From NCBI GenBank assembly GCA_902727935.1, contig CACVAX010000001.1, forward strand, positions 1-57,328: a stretch of 57,328 nt of DNA, read 5' to 3'. The first letter of the stretch is position 1; every line of letters starts with the position of its first letter. Shown here in pieces: positions 1 to 11,725 of this stretch. This DNA comes from an uncultured Sulfurovum sp. (GTDB taxonomy: Bacteria > Campylobacterota > Campylobacteria > Campylobacterales > Sulfurovaceae). A program made the translations under genes and the position numbers. The notes under the pieces are model-generated. The model saw only the letters and a list, made by a program, of their open reading frames with translations, had not been told where the DNA came from and did not search any database.

Positions 1-1767
1 GAGGGAGAGACAGAACTCTCAACTAGTTCCAGTTTCTCAAAAAGTGACTTTAGTGTAGGAGAGCATACGCTTACATTAACCGTGACCGATGATGATGCTG
101 CGACAGCGACAGATGAAGTGATTATTACCATTGAAAAACAACCATTCATAACAACATGGAAAACAGATAATTCTGGTGTATCTTCTGATACAGAGATTAT
201 TATTCCTACGCAAGGAGAGGGGTATGATTATAGTATTGATTGTGATAATGATGGCATTTATGAGGCAACGAGTCAAACGGCTAACTATACTTGTACTTAT
301 GCTAATGCTGGAACATATACGGTTCGAATTACAGGAGAGTTTCCACGAATCTATTTTAATGATGAAAAAGATAAAGAGAAAATTCTTTCAGTTGAACAGT
401 GGGGAGCTATACAATGGACATCTATGAGTCGAGCTTTTTATGGTTGTAGCAATATGCTTATTAATGCAATAGATAGCCCCGATTTATCATTAGTAACTAA
501 AATGGATAGCATGTTTGAAAATGCTGAAAGTATGAACAGTTCTTTAAGTGGTTGGGATGTGTCTAACATTGATGATATGAGCAGTTTATTTAGTGGAGCA
601 AGTAATTTTAATCAAAATTTGAGTGCTTGGAATGTTTCTAATGTTGTTGATATGGCATCACTGTTTGAGAATGCGACTGGTTTTAATGGTGAATTAAGTT
701 GGGGAGTGAGTGTGAGTAATGTTTTAGATATGGAGAGTATGTTTGATGGTGCTTCAAGCTTTGACCAAGACATAAGTGCATGGGATGTAAGTAGTGTAGG
801 TGATATGTTCCGTATGTTTAAGGGAGCAACATCGTTTAATCAAAATATAAGTACATGGAATGTGAGCAGTGTAAGCGATATGCTAGGGATGTTCAATGGG
901 GCATCGGTATTTAATCAAGATATAGGAAGCTGGAATGTTTCATCGGTAAGCGATATGTTTCGTATGTTTAAGGATGCAGTGGTATTTGACCAAAATATTG
1001 GGGCATGGGATGTAAACAATGTCGAAGATATGGATGCTATGTTTAATGGAGCTAAACTATCGGTAGTGAATTACACAGCATTACTTGTAGGATGGAAAGA
1101 TAAAACGCTTCAATCTAATGTAACTTTTGATGCTGGTAAGAGTAAATACACGGCTACAGATGGAAAGACATCCAGAGAAGTCATTACAAATAGCTACAAT
1201 TGGACAATTATAGACAGAGGCGTAACTTCTGTTAATGATGTTAAAAAAACAGGACAAACTAAAAGTTATGAGCAAGATGGAACAGAAGTAACCGATGGAA
1301 GTGTTAAAGATGATGGTTTTTATCAAAAAGGATTAGACTCCATCTATACGAGAGATGATACGAATAAGATTGTAACCGATCATCTTACAGGGCTTATGTG
1401 GCAAGATGATGAAGCTGTTGCTTCGGTAACCAAACCGTGGGTTACCCAAGACAATTATGATGCAGGTGATTATAGTGATACAACTGGTGATACAGCGACT
1501 ACCTATTGTAGTGAGTTGGTGATGGGTGGGCATGAGGATTGGCGATTGCCAACCATACAAGAGTTAGGAGGTATTGGTGATTATGGTCAACATGATCCAG
1601 TTATTAATGTGGTTTTTTTAAATACCAACTCTAGCTATTATTGGAGTTCGACTAGCCATTCTTACTATTCTGGAAATGCGTGGATTGTCAATTTCTTTTA
1701 TGGGAATCAGGACCACAGCTATAAGGGCAATAACTATTATGTTCGCTGTGTTAGAGCAGGACAGTAA
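1..1767 (+). CDS. Surface protein: PKD-like, DUF285 repeats, C-terminal DUF1566 (5' partial)
   Basis: The frame is open from base 1, so the gene starts before the window; 588 residues are visible. The first ~40 residues end like a PKD domain (LTLTVTDDD), followed by a strand-rich segment starting [11 protein letters not shown]. Roughly residues 130-385 are ~25-residue DUF285/BspA-like repeats of the type [20 protein letters not shown]. Residues ~455-588 form a DUF1566 domain ([35 protein letters not shown]). This is an extracellular, probably adhesive, protein; its ligand is unknown. The last 141 bases before the penultimate codon match the next gene in a hypermutation-like pattern (see the variable-region entries). 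The domain calls are family recognition; the export signal lies outside the window. Confidence 0.9.
1621..1761 (+). other. Candidate DGR variable region VR1 (3' end of first DUF1566 gene)
   Basis: These 47 codons align without gaps to 2110-2250. Nineteen codons differ at 25 nucleotides. In 20 of the 25 one copy has A; the other five (T/G, C/T, T/G, C/T, G/T) can both come from a template A. Only one mismatch is at a third codon position. Most variable codons fit an AAY template codon (pairs TAC/AAC, TAT/AAT, GGC/AAC, AAT/GGT, TAT/AGT). The last 21 bases, coding VRCVRAG, are identical, as expected for the 3' initiation end of a variable region. The DGR interpretation is inference from this pattern. 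Confidence 0.75.
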
Positions 1768-1783
1768 TTCTGCGTTAGCAGAA
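1768..1783. repeat. Hairpin directly after the VR1 stop codon
   Basis: TTCTGC-GTTA-GCAGAA is a perfect 6-bp stem with a 4-base loop that begins right after the stop codon, six bases past the end of VR1. In the Bordetella phage DGR a short hairpin/cruciform just downstream of VR aids target recognition. No run of T follows, so it does not look like a terminator. The loop GTTA does not fit the GRNA-type loop I recall for such hairpins, and no equivalent is seen after VR2. Confidence 0.55.
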
Positions 1784-1821
1784 CTTTGATAGTATTTTAA
1801 TATAAAAAATAGGAGTTTTAA

Positions 1822-2256
1822 ATGAAGATGATTTGCTTGTTGTTGATAAGTTTGAGTGGTATTGTCAATGCTGAAGGCTTGAGTAGGGGTAATGGTGTGG
1901 TCATTGATAGTAGCACCTACTTGGAGTGGCAAGATGATTATAGTGATAATGGTGGAGATATTAAAAATACTGCTTGGAATGATGCGATAGATTATTGTGA
2001 AGATTTAATCTTAGATGAGAAAAGTGATTGGAGGTTACCTACTCTAAAAGAGCTAAGCTCTTTGGTTGATTATGTTGAAAATAATCCTGCCATAAATGCC
2101 ATATTTGAAAATACCTACTCTAACAGTTATTGGAGTTCGACTAGCCATTCAAACAATGTTGAAAGTGCGTGGATTGTCTATTTCTATGATGGGTATCAGG
2201 ACTACCTCAATAAGAACGGTAACAGTTATGTTCGCTGTGTTAGAGCAGGAGAGTAA
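1822..2256 (+). CDS. Small secreted DUF1566 protein
   Basis: 144 residues with an N-terminal signal peptide (MKMICLLLISLSGIVNA) and an RBS AGGAG eight bases upstream of ATG. The mature part is a single DUF1566 domain: [30 protein letters not shown] and the end [10 protein letters not shown]. It equals the C-terminal domain of the preceding gene without its PKD and DUF285 parts, so it is a stand-alone secreted paralogue. Upstream of the last 141 bases the two genes differ at many synonymous sites (Arg CGA/AGG, Pro CCA/CCT, Thr ACC/ACT); inside them synonymous sites are almost frozen. DUF1566 is placed by fold with C-type-lectin-like domains, the usual scaffold of DGR-diversified proteins. Binding partner unknown. 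Confidence 0.88.
   Translation: MKMICLLLISLSGIVNAEGLSRGNGVVIDSSTYLEWQDDYSDNGGDIKNTAWNDAIDYCEDLILDEKSDWRLPTLKELSSLVDYVENNPAINAIFENTYSNSYWSSTSHSNNVESAWIVYFYDGYQDYLNKNGNSYVRCVRAGE
2110..2250 (+). other. Candidate DGR variable region VR2 (3' end of small DUF1566 gene)
   Basis: This is the counterpart of 1621-1761, with the same length and reading frame. Conserved blocks (TATTGGAGTTCGACTAGCC, GCGTGGATTGTC, CAGGAC, and the final GTTCGCTGTGTTAGAGCAGG) alternate with codons that differ only where a template adenine is possible. Eighteen of 47 residues differ between the two encoded proteins. The template repeat and reverse transcriptase were not seen in the window, so they would have to lie elsewhere. 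Confidence 0.75.
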
Positions 2257-6848: not shown

Positions 6849-7430
6849 CTATTTTACAAAAAATTCTATTTTTCCAATATTGATGTCACTACGTGCAACA
6901 CCTGAAGGTCGTAAATTCATAGATAAACCTTTTGATTGGGTAGAGTTTGTTAAATCAGTTAATTTCAAATTATTAATATCTGAAATTTGTTCTTTACTTA
7001 ATATCGCATATACTGTAGTTTTTTCTTGTTGACAACCTTTACAATCTTTAGTGGCATTGATATTCATACCTCCAAAATCTCTAGGAAAAATATATTTTCC
7101 ATTTAATTCCGTCAGAGGAGATTGTGCATTAGGATAAAGTAAGGCAGTATTCCCTTTATTATCAGCATAAACAATGTATAAATAACCTGTTTTCCCTTTT
7201 GTATCTACAATAAACTGTATTGACTGATTTTGAGAATATTCAGTTTTTCCTTTTAACTGTATGCTCCCAAACTGTGCATATTTTAAGGCTGCAATGGTTT
7301 TTTCTGAAGACTGAACCTCTGTTTTTACTGGAGTAGGAACTGGTGCCTCCTTTTTACCTGGCACACACCCTGTAATAATAATTGATGATAATACCAACAA
7401 TGAAACTTTATACCTTTTTGTTATACTCAT
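6849..7430 (-). CDS. DUF4384 lipoprotein
   Basis: 193 residues with a lipobox (IITGC, Cys ~22) and RBS AGGAGAAAG. Residues ~55-190 form a DUF4384 domain: YLYIVYADNKGNTALLYPNA, YIFPRDFGG, a C-x2-C pair (CKGCQ) and the end GKIEFFVK. The domain is clearly paralogous to the C-terminal domain of the caspase-like protein at 7499 (matching YPNS, FPKDFSGG, CHNCQ, GKYQFIVK). A lone DUF4384 next to a DUF4384-caspase fusion suggests assembly of the two in the outer membrane or periplasm. Confidence 0.82.
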   Translation of the reverse strand: MSITKRYKVSLLVLSSIIITGCVPGKKEAPVPTPVKTEVQSSEKTIAALKYAQFGSIQLKGKTEYSQNQSIQFIVDTKGKTGYLYIVYADNKGNTALLYPNAQSPLTELNGKYIFPRDFGGMNINATKDCKGCQQEKTTVYAILSKEQISDINNLKLTDLTNSTQSKGLSMNLRPSGVARSDINIGKIEFFVK

Positions 7431-7498
7431 AGCTCTTTCTCCTAGTTTAATTTTTTTATTTTAACATAAATATGTGTCCAAAAAATGTGATAAAAAAT

Positions 7499-8998
7499 TT
7501 ATTTTACGATAAATTGATATTTTCCTAATTTTGGACTACTATTTGTATTTTTTGATATTGCTTTCAACCTAACAGCTCGGGTGACAACCTGAGACTTTTG
7601 AGACCCTTTAGCAAAACTTAACAATCCATCCTTACTTTTAAATACACTACTTTGTAAAATTGGTTCTGAAGATAATAAAGTATAAATAGTGGTTTGTTCT
7701 TCTTGACAATTATGGCAACTCTTATAAGCTTCAAGTTCAAATTTTCCTCCTGAAAAATCTTTAGGAAAATGGTAAGAACCTTCTATTATTTTTGGTTGCA
7801 CAAACGAATTAGGATACAATAAGGTCACATCATTTTTGTCAACATAAAAAATTGTTAAGTAGCCTCTTGCACCTTGAGTATTTAAAGAAAACTCTACAGA
7901 TTGACCAACAGTATAAGTTGTATTATCATAGTTTAAACTCATTTTTTCCATTTTACCTTCTTGAATAAATCCCTCTAAGGTCTCCTGTAAGGTGATTTCT
8001 TTGGCAGTATTAGAAGTATTAGACGATATTGGCGTATTAGCCGATGCTATTTTGGACTGACTTTGGGTAAAGTCTTTTAAAGTACTGGAACTTGAATATG
8101 ACTTTGAATAGGAAATATTGGGATGATGCTCTTTAGCAGAGTTTTCTCTGGCATAGCGTAGTACATCGCTTGTTAAAGATTTTTTTATATCTGAAAAAGG
8201 TTGATTAAGCGAATTTTGGTTGGAAAATAATCTATAAAGTGAATTTGTAAACAGACTTCCATTTGGTGTTGCCAATGCTTCTTCATCATCTCGAGCTGAA
8301 GAGAATACGATGAAATCACTATTGTTTTCAATGATATCCTTACTGGTACTAATGTTTAAACCCTTTGAAAGAGTTCTATTTACGGTGGCTGCATCAATGG
8401 TTTTAGATTGAACTTTTCCATTTAAACTTCTAAAGACCGTGCCACTGTGACAAGAATCAAAAAAAATCATTTTTTTAGCTTTAATCGTATTAAACTTAGC
8501 ATATAAAACATCATCTAAAAGATGTATGTTCTCTTTTCCATTACTTAACACTAACGTTTCATCTGAACCATCAGACTCATCATTATTTTCATCTTTTTTA
8601 TGCGAACCATGACCACTGTAATAAAAGGCAAAATAATCATTATTGCTTAAATCTCTTCCATAGTTACTTAAATAATCAACTATTTTTAAAGCTTCAGCAT
8701 CATAAAGTGTTGTCACCTCAAAGCCCCATGATTCAAACATATTTTTCATTTTTTCAACATCTCGCTCAATACCATTAAGATCGGCATTTTCTCCAGCATA
8801 ATCACTCACACCGACGACAAGGGCTTTTTTATTATTTTGAATATTTTTAGAAAAAAGTACATTGCTCATAGCATTTGATTGAGCCAATGCTAAACCTTTA
8901 GATTGTCCATTTACTTTCTCAGATACACAAGCTTGAAAAAATATCAAAAAAAATAAACTCAGTGTAGATTTGAGCAGAAGTTTATTAAATAAAGTCAT
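7499..8998 (-). CDS. Lipoprotein caspase-like (C14) peptidase with DUF4384
   Basis: 499 residues, RBS AAAGGAT. Lipobox IFFQAC gives lipid attachment at Cys ~24. The caspase-like domain (~55-300) has the dyad H130 (YYSGHGSH) and C183 (FFDSCHSG), the acidic run DENNDESDGSDE after the His and FSSARDDEEA, typical of C14/metacaspase-like enzymes that cut after basic residues. The C-terminal DUF4384 domain (~340-499) contains a C-x2-C pair (CHNCQ). It is the first gene of the minus-strand set ending at 5412 and diverges from the barrel gene at 9094 across 95 bp. The lipid anchor implies action in the periplasm or at the outer membrane, unusual for caspase-like enzymes discussed in defence. Substrate unknown. 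Confidence 0.9.
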   Translation of the reverse strand: MTLFNKLLLKSTLSLFFLIFFQACVSEKVNGQSKGLALAQSNAMSNVLFSKNIQNNKKALVVGVSDYAGENADLNGIERDVEKMKNMFESWGFEVTTLYDAEALKIVDYLSNYGRDLSNNDYFAFYYSGHGSHKKDENNDESDGSDETLVLSNGKENIHLLDDVLYAKFNTIKAKKMIFFDSCHSGTVFRSLNGKVQSKTIDAATVNRTLSKGLNISTSKDIIENNSDFIVFSSARDDEEALATPNGSLFTNSLYRLFSNQNSLNQPFSDIKKSLTSDVLRYARENSAKEHHPNISYSKSYSSSSTLKDFTQSQSKIASANTPISSNTSNTAKEITLQETLEGFIQEGKMEKMSLNYDNTTYTVGQSVEFSLNTQGARGYLTIFYVDKNDVTLLYPNSFVQPKIIEGSYHFPKDFSGGKFELEAYKSCHNCQEEQTTIYTLLSSEPILQSSVFKSKDGLLSFAKGSQKSQVVTRAVRLKAISKNTNSSPKLGKYQFIVK

Positions 8999-9093
8999 TA
9001 ATTATCCTTTTATGTTTAATTATAATAAAATTTACTTCTTACTAAGCTTAGTCAAGTTATACTTTATTAAATAAAGATTATGAGGATGGTTTT

Positions 9094-9670: not shown

Positions 9671-11725
9671 TTGAAAAGACAATCTTTTTATATTCAAACC
9701 TCACTAAAATATGTTTTTTTTTCCCTAATATTTTTTGTGTTTCTTGCTTGTCAAAACAGTACTAATCCTATTCCAAGAAATTCTTCTTTTACCAAAGCTG
9801 TTGACCCTAAAAAACCTCTCTCTATTATTGGAGGAGAATTAAACTATGAGCTACTGCAAACCCTTGGAAGTTCCTATGCATTAAATGGAATTAGATTTAA
9901 TCCTAAAAACAATAATATTATTACTTATGGTGATAGTAGTACTATTTCTATTTATAATATGAACTTAGAGCTTATTGGAAAAATAAAAAGCAAAAATGAT
10001 GAAGTTAATGCTTTAGATATTAGCAGTGATGGAACTTATCTCGTCTGTTCAGGAGATGATGGATATGTTGAAGTATGGAATTTAGACAACAATCAACTAC
10101 GTCATCGTATGCAAAGTAATTCAGATGATATCTTTGCCATTGCATTAAGTTCCAATAATAAACTCGTTGCCAGTGCTGGAGGAGGGAAAGTGATTGATGT
10201 TTGGAGTGTTAACAGTGGAGAACAAATCGCTCGACTTGAAGGACATCAAGATGATATTACCAATCTTTCTTTTATTGACTATGATAAAAAACTGGTTTCG
10301 TCAGCCAAAGATAACCATACCAAGATATGGGCATTAAATAAAAAAAAGTTACTTTATTCTTACTTAACCCCTTCAAATGAATACGGGAAAATTCAAAAAG
10401 CCAAATCTTTTGATGACTATACCATATCAGCAATGACAGAAGTAGAAAGTGCTGAAGGAAACAGTAGAAAACGAAATGGACCACCTGTATGGGTTTATAG
10501 TATTAAATTTAAAGATAATCAAGGAAACACATTAAGCGAATTTGAACAACATCGTGGACCAATTACTGACATTAGTCTTTCAGAAAATAAAAGCTATATG
10601 GCTTCTAGTTCAGAAGATAAAACCATTCGTTTATGGGATTTAGAAAAAAAGAGACCTATCTCAAATATCGTCCTAAAAGATAAAGGTTATGGTGTTGCTG
10701 TTAATAAATCTGGTCATCTACTCGTAGCACTCGAAGGTAATCAAAAAATTAAACTTTTTCAAATTAAAAATCCCTACTCTTCAAGCAATAGCAATAGCAA
10801 TAGCAATAGCAATAGCAATACATTAAGTACTAGTAGTGGAAATAATACTAACATCTCCTCTTGGTACAAAAACCAATATGCGATTGTAATAGGTATAGAT
10901 TATTATAAACGTCTCTCTTTACCTAAACTCAATAATGCTGTAGCTGATGGACGTAGTATTGCCAAACTTTTAAAACAAAAAGGCTTTTCTGTAATTGAAC
11001 TTTATAATGAAAATGCTACTAAAGAACGTATTGTTGATGCATTAAAAGAAATCAAAAATAATGCCAGTTCAAGTGACTCGACACTATTTTATTTTGCAGG
11101 TCATGGAGATGGGGTATCAGGGAATAATAATGTTAGAGAAGGTTATATTTTACCCTATGATTTTAATTCAGATTTAAATAATCCTAATCCTGATGTAATG
11201 TATTATGATAAATCAGCATTAAGTATTAGTTCTCTAGTAATGTACTCGAGAGATACTAAAGCAAAACATATTGGTATTATTTTAGATTCATGTTTTTCAG
11301 GTTTAGCCATGGAATCAAAATATACAACTAAATCACTTTCTAACAATGAAGAGAATCTGGACAGTGTTGAATATGATACTCAAATGCGTTCGGTAAGAAT
11401 TAAGCCTACTATGATAAATTCAAGTTCCAACTCAAATAATACTACACATACTGTTGTAAGTCTATTTCAAAAGCTTTTAGATAAAAAATCTATTAATATA
11501 TTAACAGCTGGTGATGATCAACCTGTTTCCGATGGTAGTGGACATTCTCCCTTTACACAAGCATTTTTAAATGCATTAACATCAAAGGATAATAATCAGT
11601 ATATACGATTTACAACGCTTGCAGAGTATATTAAAAAGTATGTTCAAGAAAAAACTAAAGAGCGACAAAAGCCTCAATATAAAAATGAGAGTTTAGAAAA
11701 TGGAGATTTTATCTTTAGACTCTAA
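9671..11725 (+). CDS. Lipoprotein WD40 propeller-caspase-like (C14) fusion
   Basis: 684 residues; TTG start after AAGGAAATAAAA. Lipobox FLAC gives lipidation at Cys ~27. About six WD40 blades cover ~55-370 (SDGTYLVCSGDDGYVEVWNL, ASSSEDKTIRLWDL). A Ser-Asn linker follows (~372-395, six SN units from a hexanucleotide repeat), then a C14 domain (~398-684) with H478 (YFAGHGDG) and C541 (LDSCFSGLAM). In other bacteria WD40-caspase proteins are mostly cytoplasmic; here the anchor points to the envelope. The propeller likely recognises a partner. The second caspase-like lipoprotein is encoded divergently at 7499. Function unassigned: envelope surveillance, protein processing or regulated lysis are options. 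Confidence 0.9.
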   Translation: MKRQSFYIQTSLKYVFFSLIFFVFLACQNSTNPIPRNSSFTKAVDPKKPLSIIGGELNYELLQTLGSSYALNGIRFNPKNNNIITYGDSSTISIYNMNLELIGKIKSKNDEVNALDISSDGTYLVCSGDDGYVEVWNLDNNQLRHRMQSNSDDIFAIALSSNNKLVASAGGGKVIDVWSVNSGEQIARLEGHQDDITNLSFIDYDKKLVSSAKDNHTKIWALNKKKLLYSYLTPSNEYGKIQKAKSFDDYTISAMTEVESAEGNSRKRNGPPVWVYSIKFKDNQGNTLSEFEQHRGPITDISLSENKSYMASSSEDKTIRLWDLEKKRPISNIVLKDKGYGVAVNKSGHLLVALEGNQKIKLFQIKNPYSSSNSNSNSNSNSNTLSTSSGNNTNISSWYKNQYAIVIGIDYYKRLSLPKLNNAVADGRSIAKLLKQKGFSVIELYNENATKERIVDALKEIKNNASSSDSTLFYFAGHGDGVSGNNNVREGYILPYDFNSDLNNPNPDVMYYDKSALSISSLVMYSRDTKAKHIGIILDSCFSGLAMESKYTTKSLSNNEENLDSVEYDTQMRSVRIKPTMINSSSNSNNTTHTVVSLFQKLLDKKSINILTAGDDQPVSDGSGHSPFTQAFLNALTSKDNNQYIRFTTLAEYIKKYVQEKTKERQKPQYKNESLENGDFIFRL
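10784..10819 (+). repeat. Hexanucleotide microsatellite (AGCAAT)6
   Basis: Six perfect AGCAAT units encode (Ser-Asn)6 in the linker between the WD40 propeller and the caspase domain. Slippage would change linker length by two residues per unit without breaking the frame. Confidence 0.9.

Follow-up and report, generated by a model that had tools for sequence, protein, structure and literature searches.

At the left edge of the window analysed here, a stretch of 57,328 nucleotides from an uncultured Sulfurovum sp. (GCA_902727935.1, contig CACVAX010000001.1), lie two genes whose 3' ends differ in the amino acids they encode and scarcely at all at silent positions, which raises the question of whether a diversity-generating retroelement (DGR) wrote them and, if so, from where and whether it still does. 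Both ends fall within Lcl_C (DUF1566) domains, the first belonging to a multidomain protein cut by the contig edge and the second to a small protein. Their features are collected in Table 1, together with the two further copies of the repeat discussed below and a cassette from a related locus.

Table 1. Target genes, variable repeats and associated elements; positions without prefix are those of the window.
Feature	Position	Strand	Remark or basis
Target gene 1, truncated at its 5' end by the contig edge (588 aa or more)	1..1767	+	Carries V1; PKD-like stretch (below Pfam's cut-off), DUF285/PARCEL repeats, C-terminal Lcl_C (DUF1566) with V1
Best DUF285 stretch, target gene 1 (residues 243-353)	727..1059	+	PF03382 E 5.4e-73, whole protein
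Lcl_C (DUF1566) domain, target gene 1 (residues 457-585)	1369..1755	+	PF07603 E 3.9e-29
V1, variable repeat 1	1621..1764	+	Alignment of copies
Nearly invariant 3' block of V1, candidate IMH, ends CAG	1741..1764	+	IMH role suggested by position
Inverted repeat TTCTGC-GTTA-GCAGAA, immediately 3' of target gene 1 stop	1768..1783	+	Shuffle p 0.014
Target gene 2, 144 aa, signal-peptide-like start (by eye), one Lcl_C	1822..2256	+	PF07603 E 5.3e-31
V2, variable repeat 2, ends GAG as relatives' templates do	2110..2253	+	Alignment of copies
Nearly invariant 3' block of V2	2230..2253	+	Alignment of copies
V3, end of 144-aa Lcl_C (DUF1566) gene	C44:1204-1347
V4, end of 495-aa caspase-domain protein	C18:33672-33808
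L031 cassette	target end 6984; avd-like frame 7001-7360; template 7476-7614		RT frame, 380 residues, with the second target overlapping its end

The pattern itself is firm. A recount of 1621-1761 against 2110-2250 gives figures identical to those of the preliminary description, namely 25 mismatches in 19 of 47 codons without gaps, of which 20 have A in one copy and five lie between two non-A bases, with one mismatch at a third position and the amino acid changed in 18 of the 19 differing codons. When the gap-free alignment is carried to 1621-1767 and 2110-2256, there are 26 mismatches over 147 nt, distributed 15/10/1 over codon positions 1, 2 and 3, the additional one being a C/G difference at column 142, beyond the 141 nt compared originally; over 48 codons, 20 differ and 19 of these are replacements. 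The silent divergence claimed for the sequence upstream of the block (1537-1620 versus 2026-2109) is likewise present, with seven codons synonymously different and 29 of 84 bases changed, 11 of them at third positions. Third-position differences thus number 11 in 28 codons upstream versus one in 49 within the block, stop codon included (third versus other positions, repeat versus upstream, Fisher p = 0.0027). The observation on V1 and V2 is confirmed. The accompanying statement that all mismatches fit change of a template A holds as a count and fails as a test, which needs a template, because every base can derive from A.

The block recurs elsewhere in the genome. The assembly comprises 2.395 Mb in 60 contigs and is 84.6% complete with 5.8% contamination; it contains four copies at E < 1e-29, V1 to V4, and two extra matches at E 1.04 that are attributable to chance. 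Between the V2 and V3 genes, third-position differences number 39 across the 96 codons of the bodies and 2 across the 48 of the repeats. Pfam calls Lcl_C in the genes carrying V1, V2 and V3, and scores it at 32.3 bits, below the 34.9 cut-off, in the V4 gene, whose product has a Peptidase_C14 domain (E 3e-34) and a signal-peptide-like start (by eye). Modelling of this domain, a candidate for the C-type-lectin fold, gave two structures of a quality too low for a fold search (mean pLDDT 42.7 and 49.9). A profile search of solved structures returned HbP1 (8q4e) as the sole match of the A1 query (E 9.7e-4, limit 0.01), and HbP1 (E 1.8e-6) and the helicase 8jx6 (E 0.054) for the A2 query (limit 0.1). 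DNA resembling V2 occurs in 13 of the 175 genomes of the family, the present one included (E 1e-6), and an exact search of viral contigs with the 3' block gave no match. V3 was considered as a template and rejected: it is itself a variable repeat inside an open gene, and differences from it fall at A in only 10/24 (versus V1), 8/23 (versus V2) and 10/28 (versus V4) cases.

Several genes in the vicinity of the targets or related to them are recorded here in their own right. Two caspase-domain genes lie near the DGR targets of the window, at 7499-8998 (- strand) and 9671-11725 (+ strand), the second with WD40 repeats, and 2339-2692 encodes a small exported-looking protein built of near-repeats with NANxNLNVNV. 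A paralogue of the caspase target on C18 is found on C56 of the same genome (G000:C56:24675-25733); it is 76% identical over residues 4-359, has a stop inside the match, which does not extend to the variable repeat.

A reverse transcriptase (RT) adjoins the third copy. The RT match on C44 ends ~485 bases before V3, the start of the V3 gene overlaps the end of the RT gene, and the RT, present from HDVYNNR onward only, carries the SQ-type motif LPIGNLTSQ together with YVDD. The former motif was found in 60 of 74 related loci, with the SQ ending in 60 of 60, the pattern or the selection of the longest frame having missed it in the other 14. In two other RTs of the genome, one with a Cas1-like part fused to it (by eye) and the other ~520 aa long, the motif closes with SP. 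Among solved structures the C44 RT is best matched by 8ub7, a 328-residue RT (E 3.7e-18), which we take to be that of the BPP-1 DGR, and it shares homology with Bordetella phage BMP-1 in a region close to the annotated VR1 of the tropism-switching cassette. The motifs, these two matches and the A-biased repeats beside its relatives assign the C44 RT, on sequence grounds, to the DGR clade. RT matches at E 1e-30 are found in 14 of the 175 genomes of the family, again including this one. Locus L007 (G000:C43:48377-51994) encodes a 745-aa RT whose C-terminal half is Cas1-like and which adjoins a RAMP-type gene (both by eye); it is probably a type III CRISPR adaptation module.

Relatives of the C44 RT occupy 47 loci in the species-genome collection, 16 of them with a Campylobacterota name. 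At 33 of the 47, there is a repeat pair in which more than 70% of the differences fall where one copy has A (or T, on the other strand), whereas the same criterion applied to C or G is satisfied at 2/47; 14 of the 47 have no A-biased pair by this measure. The order in the relatives is target, Avd, template, RT and second target. It is seen in L031, the nearest complete relative, which by its coordinates is the same place as G150 of the same genus, and also in L033 and L042, with the template lying upstream of the avd-like frame in L036. The repeat VRa of L031 differs from its own template at 20 positions, 18 of which are A in the template, and bAvd-like proteins are detectable in L031 (E 1.5e-7) and L033 (E 7.4e-8), both below Pfam's 40-bit cut-off. 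The second target overlaps the RT in L031, L032, L033, L036 and L042, as the V3 gene does, and C44 therefore has the appearance of a cassette of this kind reduced to its 3' half. In L042, the template and the RT are separated by what looks by eye like a transposase gene (6919-7482), and there are short repeats inside the RT frame (7713-9068).

The relatives supply the templates needed to examine where the copies vary. Columns 10-144 of V1 to V4 comprise 39 variable and 96 invariant positions, and eight blocks from the place of the template were taken as a selection from the relatives, the own template being absent from the assembly. In the L031 template, A occupies 32 of the 39 variable columns and 19 of the 96 invariant ones (p = 1.7e-11); six others have A at 28-31 of the variable columns (p = 7e-8 to 2e-11), and the L032 block, which is not A-rich (14/39), was excluded from these p-values. 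For the V1/V2 pair over the same columns, the L031 template reads A at 22 of 25 differences and at 29 of the 110 columns in which the pair agrees (p = 1.4e-8); for codon positions 1 and 2 alone the figures are 22/24 and 26/66 (p = 5.7e-6). Seven of the 39 variable columns are non-A in L031 (42, 50, 54, 60, 108, 126 and 142), five of them third positions. Changes at columns 60, 108 and 126 are silent and confined to V4; column 50 is G in the L031 template; the silent column 42 reads T/A/G/A in V1 to V4, and this column and column 54 could be A in the missing template. Column 142 is the CAG/GAG difference that separates variable from template repeat in L031, L033 and L036, the GAG end being found also in VRa of L032 and in V2. 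Judged against the templates of relatives, the variable repeats thus appear to differ from their template at A.

Orthologues of the V4 caspase target in related species display the same partition of change. Third positions account for 126 of 218 differences outside the repeat versus 6 of 34 inside in G173 (82.6% identical DNA; p = 1.2e-5), and for 133 of 227 versus 5 of 32 in G143 (p = 5.5e-6), where the alignment consists of two pieces with an internal part omitted and the second piece, adjoining the repeat, has only 26 third positions among 69. G174 retains the last part only of such a gene, with 39 differences inside, nine at third positions, and 13 outside, four at third positions. The G173 copy has an in-frame TAG within the repeat at column 88, which is non-A in the L031 template. 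An RT at E 1e-30 was not found in G143, G173 or G174, whose assemblies are 74 to 85% complete.

Downstream of V4, in the same place as the inverted repeat of V1, lies TCCTGC-GTTA-GCAGGA (shuffle p 0.005), in which the next-to-outermost pair is changed on both sides relative to V1. The G173 orthologue has a repeat identical to that of V4, and the caspase gene of G143 has TTCTGC-GTTA-GCAGGA with one unmatched pair, so that no stem of 5 results. Neither V2 nor V3 has a perfect inverted repeat (stem of at least 5, loop 3-7) in the next 50 bases. Across the 31 downstream stretches scanned, in which the starts for L038, L045 and L047 were set by hand and may be a few bases off, shuffle p < 0.05 was obtained after V1, V4, the G173 caspase gene, L036 VRb, L042 VRb, both repeats of L038 and L045 VRa, and also after two templates (L031, L042), the rest being weaker or lacking a repeat. 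Phage DGR hairpins, in the passages of Guo et al. that describe them (PMC3240598), have stems of 7-10 bp and a GRNA loop, compared with 6 bp and GTTA here, and the fit is accordingly partial.

Taken together, we regard it as highly likely that one DGR lineage has four or more variable repeats in this genome, V1 and V2 among them. The DGR reverse transcriptase would copy template RNA with misincorporation at template A, and each target gene would have its 3' end replaced by the cDNA. The Lcl_C domain, which presumably serves in ligand binding, would therefore be randomised at its AAY-type codons while other bases, silent ones included, are kept. The lineage of the C44 RT may have written V1 and V2 in trans, and a single template, now missing from the assembly, was likely common to all four targets. 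The interpretation first proposed, of DGR targets served by an RT outside the window, is largely borne out by the DGR-type RT beside V3: an RT and a third copy of the block, whose joint absence from the genome was to have told against it, are both present, as is a fourth copy.

As to the present state of this DGR, the first 125 bases of C44 are the end of a repeated insertion sequence. Twelve places in the genome match it (E 2e-58 or better), each of them, by coordinates and locus lengths, lying no more than ~100 bases from where its contig ends. Seven insertion-sequence ends that were examined have GTCGTGGAGTAAG in common and each runs into different DNA; ends with GTCGTGGAGTAAG stand at the breaks of C8, C10, C13, C32, C36, C40, C44, C51, C55 and C60. 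An Avd remnant at the start of C44 was rejected as a candidate, that DNA being the insertion-sequence end. This end joins the RT at HDVYNNR, before which L031 has ~90 further residues, and the DGR may therefore be broken here. Read most simply, this would mean that an insertion sequence entered the RT and that the DNA on its far side dropped out of the assembly. A search of the genome for the RT N-terminus gave no match apart from C44 and the RT of C43. Of the RT, avd gene and template for which a genome search had been advised, the RT alone was recovered: the template was not found in the 84.6% complete assembly, in which C44 breaks off short of the position that the template occupies in relatives, nor was Avd, with PF05635 and L031 protein queries that both lacked a good positive control, PF05635 scoring the relatives' Avd poorly and exceeding its cut-off in 0/14 control genomes.

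It is consequently a serious possibility, though one to which we give somewhat less than even odds, that V1 to V4 were written earlier, that the insertion ended rewriting and that the repeats have since drifted, a refinement whose odds overlap those of the main reading. An insertion sequence that cuts the RT may have stopped rewriting in this cell line, and the truncated frame, the parts missing from the assembly and the three silent V4 changes that A does not explain are consistent with such a history. Against it, 27 of the 31 columns that vary among V1 to V3 are A in the L031 template, so that little else has changed since writing, and the assembly is incomplete and possibly mixed in strains. 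The cut RT could belong to one strain of a mixed population; indeed, the portions of Dore et al. (PMC10907252) that treat RT variants report intact and transposon-cut forms side by side.

Two explanations for a V1/V2 pair written by no retroelement fare far worse. Lcl_C paralogues under diversifying selection at ligand-contact residues, with young silent sites, would also yield an excess of replacements, yet the silent sites are almost frozen in the block while many differ in the gene bodies, the changes follow A of the L031 template even within positions 1 and 2, silent column 42 itself varies and a DGR-type RT adjoins the third copy, so that we consider this account very improbable. It is equally improbable that the gene ends were converted, or duplicated as a segment not long ago, and then mutated in the ordinary way. 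This would suit blocks near-identical apart from their variable codons, but conversion would erase replacements as well and the variable sites cluster in codons that are AAY-like in the relatives' templates.

The DGR lineage that we favour shares with the BPP-1/BMP-1 prototype the homology of the RT, a variable repeat at the 3' end of the gene, the succession Avd-template-RT (here in relatives) and an inverted repeat (here after V1 and V4), and differs from it in having several unlinked targets, Lcl_C targets and an interrupted RT. DUF1566 is a common DGR target domain according to the relevant parts of PMC4159848 and PMC6642488, where the variable repeat likewise lies in DUF1566/Lcl_C and several repeats are served by one template; the present case differs from those described there in belonging to the Campylobacterota and in having V1 and V2 on one contig and V4 on another, neither being that of the RT. 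The sections of PMC10907252 on Thiohalocapsa PB-PSB1 describe remote targets thought to be rewritten in trans, transposon-cut RTs and a link to caspase-type systems, all of which recur here, but the targets described there are CLec sensors of conflict systems, whereas here they are small Lcl_C proteins, a surface-type protein with DUF285 repeats and a protein that combines a caspase domain with a variable repeat of its own. An N-terminal caspase-type domain joined to a diversified region is also known from cyanobacterial orthocaspase variable proteins, and relative to those portrayed in the available portion of PMC7517822 the V4 protein is distinguished by a signal-peptide-like start (by eye), an Lcl_C-like end and repeat-bearing orthologues in two species.

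The literature thus already describes DUF1566 targets and remote targets of DGRs, as it does caspase-domain targets and RTs cut by transposons; that the DGR is now broken in this genome would be a plausible further twist. The literature searched contained no paper on DGRs naming Sulfurovum and, by title, none on Campylobacterota DGRs; one of the DGR papers matching campylobacter deals, in the part of its text that bears on this, with gammaproteobacterial DGRs, and the main text of Roux et al. mentions neither Campylobacter nor Epsilon. The large survey PMC8144416 is by its own account, in the section concerned, blind to targets without a nearby RT or template. We note that V1 and V2 were recognisable as DGR targets from a window that holds neither.

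The locus thus points to a DGR lineage in the Campylobacterota whose target set joins surface-type proteins with a caspase-domain protein, and it offers a natural candidate for a stopped DGR with four written targets remaining. More tentatively, and as a reading that we would not bet on at present, one template in this Sulfurovum-like lineage may have diversified an exported caspase and small secreted proteins alongside a large surface-type protein before an insertion sequence cut the RT and froze the repertoire. If so, adhesion and a death- or processing-type enzyme would have drawn on one shared binding repertoire.
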